Below are positions 1,910 to 52,663 of a stretch of DNA of 64,000 nucleotides, piece by piece. The stretch is taken from positions 3,317,001 to 3,381,000 of the forward strand of contig NZ_CP019952.1 in the NCBI RefSeq assembly GCF_002021815.1. Direction: 5' to 3'. Origin of the DNA: Pseudomonas parafulva (lineage in GTDB: Bacteria; Pseudomonadota; Gammaproteobacteria; Pseudomonadales; Pseudomonadaceae). The position numbers and the translations under genes were made by a program. A model generated the notes under the pieces. It had not been told where the DNA came from, searched no databases, and worked only from the letters and a program-made list of their open reading frames with translations. Position 1 is the stretch's first letter, and each line of letters opens with the position of its first letter.

Positions 1910-1914
1910 TTGAT

Positions 1915-2010
1915 CTTGATCTTGATCTTGATCTTGATCTTGATCTTGATCTTGATCTTGATCTTGATCTTGATCTTGATCTTGATCTTGATCTTGATCT
2001 TGATCTTGAT
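1915..2010 (+). repeat. Hexanucleotide microsatellite (CTTGAT)16
   Basis: Sixteen perfect tandem copies of CTTGAT, preceded by one degenerate copy (GTTGAT at 1909-1914) and ending exactly where the structured repeat copy A begins (CTTCGCGACTTC). One forward frame reads Leu-Asp and a second Leu-Ile, while the third contains TGA in every unit. The reverse strand reads Ile-Lys, Ser-Arg or Gln-Asp. The low-complexity peptides this creates are not credible proteins. The length and perfection suggest recent slippage expansion. Confidence 0.95.
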
Positions 2011-2229
2011 CTTCGCGACTTCAGAAGGCCGAACGCAGGGCTTGCGGAGGGAGGTGACAGGCATGGATGCCTGTCAAGCGCTGGGCCCCAGGATGGGGCC
2101 TACAGCGCGGTCCTCCCGGGAGCAAGACCGGAGTGAGGGAACCCCGAAGCGCAGCGTAGGGGCCGTATGAACGGAGCGCAGCGTTTTTTGGTTACTTTTT
2201 GTCGCGTTTGACAAAAAGTGACTCGCCGT
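2011..2229 (+). repeat. Structured intergenic repeat, copy A, 5' part (interrupted by IS)
   Basis: First part of a roughly 280-bp repeat, about 95 percent identical by eye to copy B (3776-4053, opposite strand) over its first 160 bases, then more divergent. Visible structures: a near-perfect hairpin at 2056-2075 (GACAGGCAT/ATGCCTGTC), a GCGCTG...CAGCGC stem enclosing GGCCCCA/TGGGGCC at about 2078-2108, and a 13-bp hairpin at 2191-2222 (GTTACTTTTTGTC/GACAAAAAGTGAC). The IS3 element enters at 2229/2230, inside a third small stem (CGCC-GTAAG-GGCG); the remainder resumes at 3677. Confidence 0.85.
2191..2222 (+). terminator. Terminator-like hairpin at the 3' side of repeat copy A
   Basis: A 13-bp stem with a 6-base loop (GCGTTT) and one G-T wobble, carrying A5/T5 runs inside the stem on both sides. 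The same position in copy B has a 12-bp stem whose outermost pair is C-G instead of G-C, a compensatory change. No T-run follows the stem, so it is not a textbook rho-independent terminator. It is called here because of its shape. Confidence 0.45.
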
Positions 2230-2261
2230 TGAACTGACCCCCAAAAGTTGGACAGTGAGCG

Positions 2262-3086
2262 CTATGGGGCCAGCGCGTGGGTCCGAAATTGTATCGGACT
2301 CAGGCCATCAAGTCTGAGGCTGATGCGTTTTTGGTTGTAGTAAGCGATGTAATCATCAAGTCCTGAAGCCAACTGCTCGACATTTTCAAACGACTCCAGG
2401 TAAAAATATTCGCTCTTGAGTGTGCCGAAAAAGCTTTCCATTGCGGCGTTGTCTAGGCAGTTGCCCTTACGCGACATACTCTGCTCAATGTTCTTCTCGG
2501 CCAGCATATGCCGGTAAGTGGGCTGCCTGTACTGCCATCCTTGATCGGAGTGCAATATCGGTTTATCACCTGGATTCAGCCGCTCAAAGGCTTGCTCAAG
2601 CATTGCCGAGACCATCTTGAACTCCGGGCGCCGGTTAATCTGATAAGCGAGGATTTCGCCGTTATACAGGTCCATCAACGGCGAAAGAAACAGCTTCTGC
2701 CCCTTCACTTTGAACTCTGTCACGTCGGTTGCCCATTTCTGATTAGGGGCTCCTGCCTTGAATTCTCGCCTGAGCAGATCAGGCGCAACCAGTCCCTCTG
2801 AGCCTCGGTACGAGCGATATTTCTTCGCCCTGACCAGCGACTGGAGACCCATAAGCTGCATCAGTCGCTGCACCTTCTTGTGATTAATCATCCGACCGTT
2901 GTGCTTGAGGGTCTCAGTGATCCGGCGATAGCCATACCGTCCCTTATGCTCGTGATAGACGTTGTTGATACTCTCTTTCAAAGCCGCATGCTTGTCAGTC
3001 AACAACACCTTGCTTTGGTAATAAAAGGTACTACGTGCAAGCCCGGCGGCACGTAACAGCAGAGCGAGTCGATGCCCGTGCCTCAA
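2262..3086 (-). CDS. IS3-family transposase OrfB (DDE catalytic domain)
   Basis: Catalytic part of the transposase, 274 codons from a TTG that overlaps the orfA stop (TTGA). The rve-type integrase fold shows the DDE triad: Asp in WATDVTEF, Asp in LHSDQGWQYR and Glu in NAAMESFFGTLKSE. It ends with the usual IRL-proximal DYIAYYNQKRISLRLDG block. Its frame stays open upstream as far as the A AAA AAG slippery site at 3158-3152, so the functional product is most likely an OrfAB fusion made by -1 frameshifting. Independent initiation at the TTG is less likely. Confidence 0.93.
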   Translation of the reverse strand: MRHGHRLALLLRAAGLARSTFYYQSKVLLTDKHAALKESINNVYHEHKGRYGYRRITETLKHNGRMINHKKVQRLMQLMGLQSLVRAKKYRSYRGSEGLVAPDLLRREFKAGAPNQKWATDVTEFKVKGQKLFLSPLMDLYNGEILAYQINRRPEFKMVSAMLEQAFERLNPGDKPILHSDQGWQYRQPTYRHMLAEKNIEQSMSRKGNCLDNAAMESFFGTLKSEYFYLESFENVEQLASGLDDYIAYYNQKRISLRLDGLSPIQFRTHALAP

Positions 3087-3625
3087 TCCCTGGACAGCCT
3101 TCGTTTTCTCGCCTGCGCAGTGCGAGGGTCCGCTTGGATCAAGGCATCGAGCTTTTTTAGGTAAGCATTCTCCGCACGCAGATATTCCAGCTCTTCGAGC
3201 ATTTGCTCGGGTGTCAGGTCGCTATCCGAAGCGGTAGGAGGACTTGCGCTGGTTTTTTTCGATGGCTTACGGGGCATGCTCAACTCTCGGGTATGATGCG
3301 GATGAAGTGCTTCAACTCCGCCTTGATCATACAACCTTTTCCACTGCCTGATGCTACTTGGACCACGAATATCAAACTGGATGCAGGCTTGCTGGGCAGA
3401 CAATCCTTCTTGCTCAATGCACTGCAAAACCTTCAATTTGAACTGGGCATCGTAGCGGCTGTACTTGGCACTTAAACCGGCTGCGCCGTGTTTTTCATAG
3501 CCCTTTACCCACCGACGTAGCATCGATGGACTGAGGTCATGCTTTAGCGCCACTTCATGAATGCTAGGAGCAGAAAGGCACTCTTCGATGAGTGCCTGTT
3601 TGAGCGCCAGGTTGTATTTCGTCAT
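3083..3625 (-). CDS. IS3-family transposase OrfA (DNA-binding, double helix-turn-helix)
   Basis: A 180-residue protein with two helix-turn-helix units (about residues 10-35 and 55-85), a Ser/Lys-rich linker and a C-terminal leucine-zipper-like segment (LEELEYLRAENAYLKKLDALI), the arrangement of IS150-type InsJ proteins. It binds the terminal inverted repeats. The codons CTA AAA AAG near residue 152 form a canonical A6G -1 slippery sequence, followed within about 25 bases by a possible CTCGC/GCGAG stem that could stimulate shifting. The start MTKYNLALKQ is preceded by GGAGGG a few bases upstream. Confidence 0.92.
   Translation of the reverse strand: MTKYNLALKQALIEECLSAPSIHEVALKHDLSPSMLRRWVKGYEKHGAAGLSAKYSRYDAQFKLKVLQCIEQEGLSAQQACIQFDIRGPSSIRQWKRLYDQGGVEALHPHHTRELSMPRKPSKKTSASPPTASDSDLTPEQMLEELEYLRAENAYLKKLDALIQADPRTAQARKRRLSRD
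3152..3158 (-). promoter_or_regulatory. A6G programmed -1 frameshift site of the IS element
   Basis: On the coding (minus) strand the orfA frame reads CTA AAA AAG. Slipping back one base here gives GCT CGA TGC..., which runs without a stop into the orfB frame. A6G is the characterised shift site in several IS3-family members including IS150. Function in this copy is inferred. Confidence 0.8.
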
Positions 3626-3676
3626 GGAACACCCTCCGGTGAGATAGGTGTCCAACATTCGGGGGTCAGTTCACGT

Positions 3677-3741
3677 AAGGGCGAAAAGGTGACTAAGCGT
3701 CGCCATCGCAAATGGACTATGCTCTCTTTCAATACCCACGC
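3677..3741 (+). repeat. Structured intergenic repeat, copy A, 3' part
   Basis: Continuation of copy A after the insertion sequence. AAGGGCG completes the CGCC/GGCG stem broken by the IS, and GGTGACTAAGCG aligns with GGTGACTGTGCG of copy B. Similarity fades gradually, but both copies seem to end in CCCACGC (3735-3741 here; the inverted match GCGTGGG is at 3776-3782). Confidence 0.65.
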
Positions 3742-3751
3742 CAACGCAATC

Positions 3752-3772
3752 AAACTTGAAACTTGAAACTTG
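3752..3772 (+). repeat. Heptanucleotide AAACTTG x3 at the centre of the inverted repeat pair
   Basis: Three perfect tandem copies of AAACTTG (3752, 3759, 3766), lying in the 34-base gap between CCCACGC (3735-3741) and GCGTGGG (3776-3782) where copies A and B meet head to head at their 3' ends. No coding potential. It is the third tandem array of the locus and differs in unit length from the two flanking hexamer arrays. Confidence 0.85.
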
Positions 3773-3775
3773 AAA

Positions 3776-4053
3776 GCGTGGGCGCGCACAGCAAGTTGGT
3801 ATTCATTGGCGCGGGTGGCGCACAGTCACCTTTCCGCCCTTACGGCGGCTTACTTTTTGTCTTGTCAAAAAGTAAGCAAAAACCGCCTGCTCCTATCATC
3901 CGGCCCCTACGCTACGCTTCGGGGTTCCCTCGCTCCGGGCTTGCTCCCGGGAGGACCGCGCTGCAGGCCCCATCCTGGGGCCCAGCGCTTGACGGGCATC
4001 CATGCCCGTCACCTCCCTCCGCAAGCCCTGCGCTCGGCCTCCTGAAGTCGCGA
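3776..4053 (-). repeat. Structured intergenic repeat, copy B (uninterrupted)
   Basis: Inverted copy of the same element, read on the minus strand from about 4053. Matching structures are a hairpin at 3991-4010 (GACGGGCAT/ATGCCCGTC), the GCGCTG stem, a 12-bp hairpin at 3848-3877 (GCTTACTTTTTG/CAAAAAGTAAGC) and CCGCC-CTTAC-GGCGG at 3834-3848. Compared with copy A, the first hairpin has a paired A-T to G-C replacement and the long hairpin a paired G-C to C-G replacement. The one frame open in both copies (GLRREVTGMDA...) differs by amino-acid changes at about one site in ten, so protein coding is unlikely. Confidence 0.85.
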
Positions 4054-4085
4054 TCTGCGGCGCCTGAGCTACCGCGCGCTTAGAA

Positions 4086-4477
<392 letters not shown>

Positions 4478-52211: not shown

Positions 52212-52663
52212 ATGGAAGGCCGCGGCACTCACCGTTTACGTCTAGGCAGGTTCTCCGAGCCCGGGCGGTTATACCTACTGACCACCGCCACCCGAAACCG
52301 TACCCCACTTTTCACACACCTGCACTACGCCAGGGCCGTGATCCAGCAGCTGCAACTCACTGCTGCGCAACGACAGTGCCAGAGCCTCGCCTGGGTACTG
52401 ATGCCCGATCACTTGCACTGGCTTATCACGCTAGGCCCCTGCAGCCTCGACGAGCTGATGCGTGAATTCAAATCACGCAGCAGTTGCGCGCTTTACACAC
52501 GAGGCGCCGAGCACCAGCGATCTGGCAACCTGGCTTCCATGACCGCGCCCTTCGCCGTGACGAACAGGTGCGCAGCGTCGCTCGCTACATCATCGCCAAT
52601 CCAATCCGCGCCGGCCTGGTAACGCGAGCGAGCGATTACCCGCATTGGGACTGTGTCTGGCTC
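52212..52663 (+). pseudogene. REP-associated tyrosine transposase (RAYT), frameshifted
   Basis: Y1-type transposase related to IS200/IS605 TnpA that recognises REP hairpins. The first frame (from ATG 52212 with AAGGAG upstream) carries the GRLYLLTTATRNR-type start and the HUH His pair in MPDHLHWLI. After the codons for EHQR the conserved continuation IWQPGFHDRALRRDE...ARYIIANPIRAGLVTR...YPHWDCVWL, which includes the Tyr helix, is in the -1 frame. One missing base between 52519 and 52520 (CG-ATC) explains this. The second frame has also lost its usual stop and stays open to 52804, overlapping the convergent gene. Inactive unless shifting occurs; no slippery site is visible. Confidence 0.88.

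Follow-up and report, generated by a model that had tools for sequence, protein, structure and literature searches.

An inverted pair of dispersed repeats in Pseudomonas parafulva with two adjacent GGA-loop hairpins: candidate RsmA/CsrA decoy RNA genes related to TwoAYGGAY

The window analyzed here is a 64,000-nt stretch of Pseudomonas parafulva DNA (assembly GCF_002021815.1, contig NZ_CP019952.1, positions 3,317,001 to 3,381,000), and coordinates below are those of the window unless stated otherwise. Near its start, between divergent genes and directed into the gap between them, lie two copies of a structured intergenic repeat, A on the + strand and B on the - strand. The two units are opposed, with their 3' ends toward the center and their 5' ends outward, and their inverted arms (2013-2188 and 3878-4053) are 91% complementary over 176 nt. 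Each unit contains a core of two neighboring GGA-loop hairpins, followed by a 3' module of two further hairpins (Table 1). A is interrupted by a 1444-bp insertion sequence (IS) flanked by a CGT duplication at 2227-2229 and 3674-3676, so an earlier annotation made from the letters alone, the sequence-only reading, was right to describe A as split in two. We propose that the units are probably genes for decoy RNAs that would titrate the regulator RsmA/CsrA.

The folds of the two units are maintained through paired changes. The hairpin at 2056-2075 reads GACAGGCATGGATGCCTGTC in A and GACGGGCATGGATGCCCGTC in B, a change on both sides of the stem, and the outermost pair of the A/T-rich hairpin is G-C in A and C-G in B. 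The sequence-only reading had named both changes, which are real, as well as a third (T.G in A, T-A in B), which is one-sided; its wider claim of selection on structure is supported by a covariation test. In an alignment of 18 units, not picked for hairpins and covering 29 pairs in four helices (the inner stem of hairpin 2, split by the aligner, was excluded from the pair count), 17 of the 29 pairs vary on both sides. Cells are paired in 95.4% of cases, compared with 38.7-48.3% when the partner is slid by one to three columns, and 81 cells are altered on both sides, compared with 26 in shuffles. Counted on the sense strand, G.T pairs outnumber A.C pairs by 17 to 3, which points to that strand, although 12 of the 17 fall at a single pair and such an excess does not tell RNA and DNA apart. 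In RNA folds, each core forms its two hairpins, with z -4.3 (A) and z -3.6 (B).

The stems diverge widely, while the loops remain A(N)GGA; loop 1 is AUGGAU in both A and B. A scan for perfect hairpins upstream of the 3' module, which was run before the Rfam match described below and left out elements with <250 nt upstream, returned GGA as the commonest loop triplet, in 55 of 129 distinct hairpins from 104 elements, with TCC in 5; 20 shuffles gave a mean of 3.4 and a maximum of 6 GGA loops of ∼57 hairpins. When elements with at least 300 nt upstream are set against controls from the same loci, GGA-loop hairpins make up 87 of the 173 found in 103 element windows and 5 of the 222 found in 336 control windows, and at least one is present in 52 of the 103 element windows (all taxa). 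Among 65 distinct close copies collected by homology to A and B, 62 carry two GGA hairpins, two carry one, and one carries none, and the GGA-to-GGA distance is 23-25 nt in 32 of 36 distinct two-hairpin sets. A high-affinity RsmE site has been described as an ANGGAX hexaloop directly on a stem (PMC4005645), and CsrA bridging as operating between sites 10-63 nt apart with an optimum above 18 (PMC7652899). In the element, A(N)GGA loops sit directly on stems at two or more sites 10-63 nt apart. Its loops and spacing agree with what has been published on high-affinity RsmE sites and on CsrA bridging, and its binding-site anatomy is well supported. In one Pseudomonas subfamily (L061, L063, L068, L077, L079), GNA triloops of the GCGNAGC type are seen by eye in place of the GGA hairpins, with the same 3' module.

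At gathering scores, Rfam returns no match in the whole window. In E-value mode, both cores match TwoAYGGAY (RF01731), A with 41.6 bits (E 9.7e-5) and B with 38.8 bits (E 4.2e-4), neither reaching the gathering score of 43. The cores align to model positions 47-111 and form two adjacent hairpins with a short linker, as seen in the cmscan alignment and the RNA folds. Among 18 related loci scanned, eight of the 16 of the GGA type gave 10 matches above 43 bits, and the two without GGA loops gave none. TwoAYGGAY belongs to the same Rfam clan as PrrB/RsmZ (CL00106). Weinberg et al. (2010) described it as a probable RNA of the human gut, gammaproteobacteria, and Clostridiales (PMC2864571), and CsrA binding by it was proposed in a subsequent paper ("Annotating RNA motifs", NAR 2014, PMC4333381), so neither the core nor the CsrA idea is new. 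The sequence-only reading, which knew of no described function, is corrected on this point: the core is a sub-threshold match to a family for which CsrA binding is predicted in print. That reading had also held that an annotated Rfam family would count against it, which applies in part, the match lying below the gathering score, and the small RNA family that it listed as one candidate gains support. The core motif and its predicted CsrA binding are thus known, and it is the setting for which we found no description in the open PMC papers searched, as far as their available text goes. By setting we mean a dispersed composite repeat with a two-hairpin 3' module, 5' hexanucleotide arrays, frequent inverted pairing, presence and absence between species, and IS elements in its loops. 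A literature search of open PMC papers with the element's own sequence strings gave nothing relevant.

The element is widespread in the genus. Sequence like at least part of B was found by blastn in 103 of 119 Pseudomonas genomes, the host genome included, in line with the earlier statement that related sequences occur in other pseudomonads; blastn of B against plasmids and phages gave no match. TwoAYGGAY was matched in at least 58 of 99 Pseudomonas genomes and above the cut-off in at least 51, both lower bounds with at most 25 candidates scored per genome. A fuller count at E 0.001 or better in 23 chosen genomes gave matches in 14, including 10 above the cut-off, the host (G000) not among these 10. 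Matches at this level number 31 in the host (all below the cut-off), 51 in G109, 57 in a Halothiobacillaceae bin (G395), 35 in G015, and 22 in G061. The nine genomes without a TwoAYGGAY match include both Xanthomonas, in whose elements the hairpin scan still shows GGA loops. Of 22 TwoAYGGAY loci, a script placed an A/T-rich hairpin 3' of the core in 15, and reading by eye added two more, giving 17. In the draft assemblies G457, G077, G081, and G116, contigs often break inside or beside the repeat, with matches at contig base 1, and copy numbers in drafts are therefore too low. C4 antisense RNA (RF01695) occurs above gathering at most ∼0.6 kb from element copies at two of 18 loci (L198:4712-4796 and L072:962-1049, both on the - strand).

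RsmA/CsrA is a global lifestyle regulator in gammaproteobacteria, and A(N)GGA loops are associated with its presence. Our comparison covers 53 genomes with a testable element, one to a few elements each, after elements with <150 nt upstream were dropped and G413, G428, and G217 excluded. Loops and CsrA occur together in 20 of these genomes, loops only in 2, CsrA only in 12, and neither in 19 (Fisher p 0.00015, without kinship correction); if any GGA loop is accepted, the respective numbers are 20, 4, 12, and 17 (p 0.002, likewise uncorrected for kinship). One genome, G375, has GGA loops from which the preceding A is absent, and was not counted as A(N)GGA. For TwoAYGGAY itself, CsrA is present in 9 of 9 genomes with a match and 4 of 9 without, among 18 searched for both. 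The host genome encodes three homologues of CsrA and gave a single match to RsmZ. One of the three CsrA/Rsm homologues is located at G000:C1:3314926-3315084, ∼2 kb before the first base of the window.

From these features we infer transcription, binding, titration, and termination, and put the probability that the repeat units are RsmA/CsrA decoy RNA genes at about 0.6. Each unit would be a short RNA gene, the sense transcript of which folds into two adjacent A(N)GGA-loop hairpins spaced such that one RsmA/RsmE/CsrA dimer could clamp both. The conserved 3' module that follows, an A/T-rich hairpin and a GC hairpin, resembles an intrinsic terminator when reversed and so would halt antisense transcripts crossing the unit; where two units converge, the transcript of each would end at the module of the other. 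The many near-identical copies would jointly draw off RsmA/CsrA as a decoy or sponge, as RsmX/Y/Z do.

Several observations weigh against the decoy proposal. Loop 2 of both A and B is AGGAU, which lacks the Y and is one base short of AYGGAY, and 51 of the 103 element windows (all taxa) are without a GGA hairpin of stem ≥6. No TwoAYGGAY match was obtained in 41 of the 99 Pseudomonas genomes with at most 25 candidates scored in each. Two metagenome bins with A(N)GGA loops showed no CsrA. In 12 of 32 CsrA-bearing genomes, three Pseudomonas included, the module is present but none of the one to five elements examined per genome has A(N)GGA loops, and just one of five elements in G230 has them; CsrA binding is therefore not common to every element. 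A promoter scan of the region gave one promoter-like site versus 1.7 expected, and none was recognized as a promoter. Orientation to neighboring genes is unbiased in a wider set of 72 elements placed against flanking open reading frames (ORFs), with 23 sense and 21 antisense among the 44 co-directional cases and 14 each convergent and divergent. Finally, RsmU with all four of its GGAs altered was still bound by RsmA (PMC7694677), a result which cautions that GGA motifs alone can mislead. RsmU is a Xanthomonas RNA cut from a 3' untranslated region (UTR) (PMC7694677) and, together with the Rfam type of RF01731, Cis-reg, it could suggest that the element is a CsrA/RsmA site acting in cis in the UTRs of neighboring genes. 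We consider this improbable given the lack of a preferred orientation, the placement of the window's own copies, which point into a gap between divergent genes, and the fact that Weinberg et al. marked TwoAYGGAY as probably not cis-regulatory (PMC2864571). The unbiased orientation also led us to reject a rule by which the element would lie in 3' UTRs.

Table 1. Parts of the repeat pair and the inserted element, in window coordinates
Feature	Position	Strand	Remarks
Unit A, 5' part, ending at the IS insertion point	2011..2229	+	
Unit A, remainder 3' of the IS	3674..3741	+	3674-3676 is the duplicated CGT
Unit B	3776..4080	-	305 nt
TwoAYGGAY-like core of A, two GGA-loop hairpins	2053..2112	+	Rfam RF01731
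TwoAYGGAY-like core of B, two GGA-loop hairpins	3954..4013	-	Rfam RF01731
A/T-rich hairpin of A, first hairpin of the 3' module	2191..2222	+	inverted repeat; homologous to helix 3 of the covariation set
A/T-rich hairpin of B	3848..3877	-	inverted repeat; loop occupied by a second IS at other loci
Last hairpin of A (TCGCC GTAAG GGCGA), left arm and part of loop, cut by the IS	2223..2229	+	
Last hairpin of A, rest of loop and right arm	3677..3684	+	
Last hairpin of B	3834..3848	-	+ strand reading terminator-like: GC stem, then CTTACTTTTT
Hexanucleotide array at 5' end of A	1911..2012	not assigned	TTGATC units towards A
Hexanucleotide array at 5' end of B	4086..4147	not assigned	CAACAG and CAACGG units
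IS3-family insertion sequence, outside the repeat proper	2230..3673	-	1444 bp; ORFs 3083-3658 and 2262-3086

With B as the query, the host genome (4.69 Mb, single contig) gave at least 39 matches from 40 of 51 candidates scored. These resolve to 19 loci, 15 of them inverted A/B pairs and four solo B units, plus one 43-base partial match. The 305-nt stretch of B was matched full-length and in one piece at 12 of the 19 loci with 95-100% identity. Across loci, A units are ∼96-100% and B units ∼94-98% identical to the copies in the window, and A and B are ∼86-93% identical to each other; since A resembles other A units more than the B of its own locus, the pair has spread or been homogenized as a unit. 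A and B are two recurring subfamilies and not simply two single copies. The outer 5' ends merge into hexanucleotide arrays, the repeat unit of which varies between copies: within 150 nt, an exact run of at least two units is present at 15 of 15 A ends, and one of at least three units at 16 of 19 B ends, with none at the B of L036, L044, and L045. Inverted pairing recurs in other genomes, where by-eye counts among the TwoAYGGAY matches listed place 12 of 13 in convergent pairs in G057 and 16 of 21 in divergent pairs in G061.

Near-identity within the genome, common inverted pairs, and unbiased orientation to genes would also suit an interspersed element of the REP/BIME type that works at the level of DNA, in which the hairpins act as single-stranded DNA or cruciforms, an unknown transposase spreads them, and IS elements use them as landing pads. 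The comparison of occupied and empty sites that the sequence-only reading had suggested gave, at locus L039, an empty site in 11 of 11 relatives with both flanks together; in a twelfth, G457, the flanks are on separate contigs. For the window's own site, both the element and the DUF485 gene are absent from the 1.5 kb covered in 29 relative loci, and the contig of the nearest relative ends there; at site L042, the right flank is repetitive in one relative. The earlier suggestion of a mobile element is therefore upheld as regards presence and absence at L039 and near-identity within the genome, and falls short in that no terminal repeats, target duplication, or own transposase was found. As to the marks of a MITE, terminal inverted repeats and a target-site duplication, the ends of the element merge into variable arrays, and the empty sites are too divergent to display a duplication. 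Mobilization by a RAYT was rejected, as the sole Y1_Tnp (RAYT-like) match in the host (3369278-3369520, window 52278-52520, + strand) is ∼48 kb from the window's copies and adjoins none of the 19 loci. A REP/BIME-type element would also leave unexplained why GGA is the favored loop triplet on one strand, why the spacing is near-constant despite changing stems, and why CsrA is associated, and we judge it unlikely.

The IS elements found in the hairpin loops, counted within loci fetched for holding the repeat, are a further point in favor of a REP/BIME-type element. The IS inside A scores 327 bits with NF033516 (cut-off 160) and has the transposase and short target duplication of the IS3 family; all seven copies of it sit at one point in the loop of A's last hairpin, in both orientations and each with a 3-bp duplication. 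A second IS3-family element of 1615 bp, the longer ORF of which scores 185.6 bits with NF033516 (same cut-off), occupies the A/T-rich hairpin's loop in 4 of 4 cases (L034, L047, L048, L049), with an apparent 5-bp duplication. The ends of neither IS were found elsewhere in the window. Other IS3-family elements are likewise known to enter palindromic repeats at a fixed point (PMC1525189).

The pattern of the 3' module, TTTTGGTTACTTTT-N3-24-AAAAGTRACYNGCC, occurs in at least 120 stretches of the genome collection, and the matches listed come from Xanthomonas, Lysobacter, Cupriavidus, Psychromonas, a Halothiobacillaceae bin, Cystobacterineae bins, Mucilaginibacter, Flavisolibacter, and an Oscillibacter bin. 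Matches across phyla denote pattern similarity, from which shared descent does not follow, and the bins may include foreign contigs. In the class, the hairpin pattern taken alone is present in 53 of 274 genomes, several instances being plainly unrelated when read. Outside Gammaproteobacteria, most occurrences of the module lack A(N)GGA loops, and CsrA is likewise mostly absent. Of five such loci in Bacteroidota, the Oscillibacter bin, and a Cystobacterineae bin (L116, L163, L125, L165, L132), the first four are without GGA hairpins, and L132 lies too near a contig end for such hairpins to be seen. At L080, L081, L109, and L183, outside Pseudomonas, other landmarks such as GAGCATCGCAG and TGTTTGAG...CGAGTT are seen by eye at the position of the GGA hairpins. 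The module is the part common to several phyla, one of its strands is terminator-like, and 14 of the 19 host loci lie between convergent or divergent ORFs (nine convergent, five divergent, and five co-directional by simple ORF calls), all of which could indicate a transcription-end or insulator element at the borders of transcription units, with the GGA hairpins secondary. The region contains just one terminator-like site, which reads against the sense strand of B, versus 3.4 in shuffles, so the termination site proposed earlier has this one match to its credit and the shuffles against it. In the wider set, co-directional gaps hold 44 of 72 elements versus 116 of 229 in the background, and the GGA loops would be left without a role, making a transcription-end element quite unlikely in our view.

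If dozens of repeat copies do bind RsmA/CsrA, copy number would act as a heritable control on the network, and sequences of a class passed over as intergenic repeat would turn out to be functional RNA. To our knowledge, established RsmA/CsrA decoys are one or a few genes. A broader and decidedly tentative extension is that a self-spreading repeat has turned into a distributed decoy: dozens of homogenized RNA genes would titrate RsmA/CsrA, their species-varying number would set the strength of the regulator, the carrier 3' module would be ancient in many phyla, and the CsrA-binding hairpins would have been gained in CsrA-bearing lineages. Found from Pseudomonas to Cupriavidus, Cystobacterineae bins, Bacteroidota, and an Oscillibacter bin, the module would be a widespread interspersed element without description in the open PMC papers searched.

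The decoy proposal can be compared with several known systems. TwoAYGGAY shares with the element the two adjacent GGA-loop hairpins and the short linker, and some relatives of the element exceed its gathering score; it differs in that the window's copies stay below 43 bits with AGGAU as loop 2, and in that the 3' module, arrays, inverted pairing, high copy number, and loop IS elements are not mentioned in the available text of PMC2864571 and PMC4333381. REP, BIME, and REPIN elements with IS1397, ISPsy8, and ISPpu9 are likewise palindromic intergenic repeats with inverted pairs and fixed IS points, including those of IS3-family members (PMC1525189), whereas the units here are ∼255 nt with several hairpins and have no RAYT gene beside them. 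The R0-R200 repeats of P. fluorescens (Silby et al. 2009, PMC2718517) are also dispersed, structured, intergenic, and often tail to tail, and the available text gives no RNA function for them; R178 (101 bp, with an internal 11-bp inverted repeat) or R200 (320 bp), compared by description, may be related on grounds of size only. Closest in the proposed function are RsmX/RsmY/RsmZ and CsrB/CsrC, which sequester RsmA/CsrA through GGA motifs in hairpin loops, RsmZ being in the clan of TwoAYGGAY. A search for RsmZ, the one member of the RsmX/Y/Z group covered, found a single match in each of four genomes, whereas the element described here is present as dozens of scattered copies, each with two main sites.

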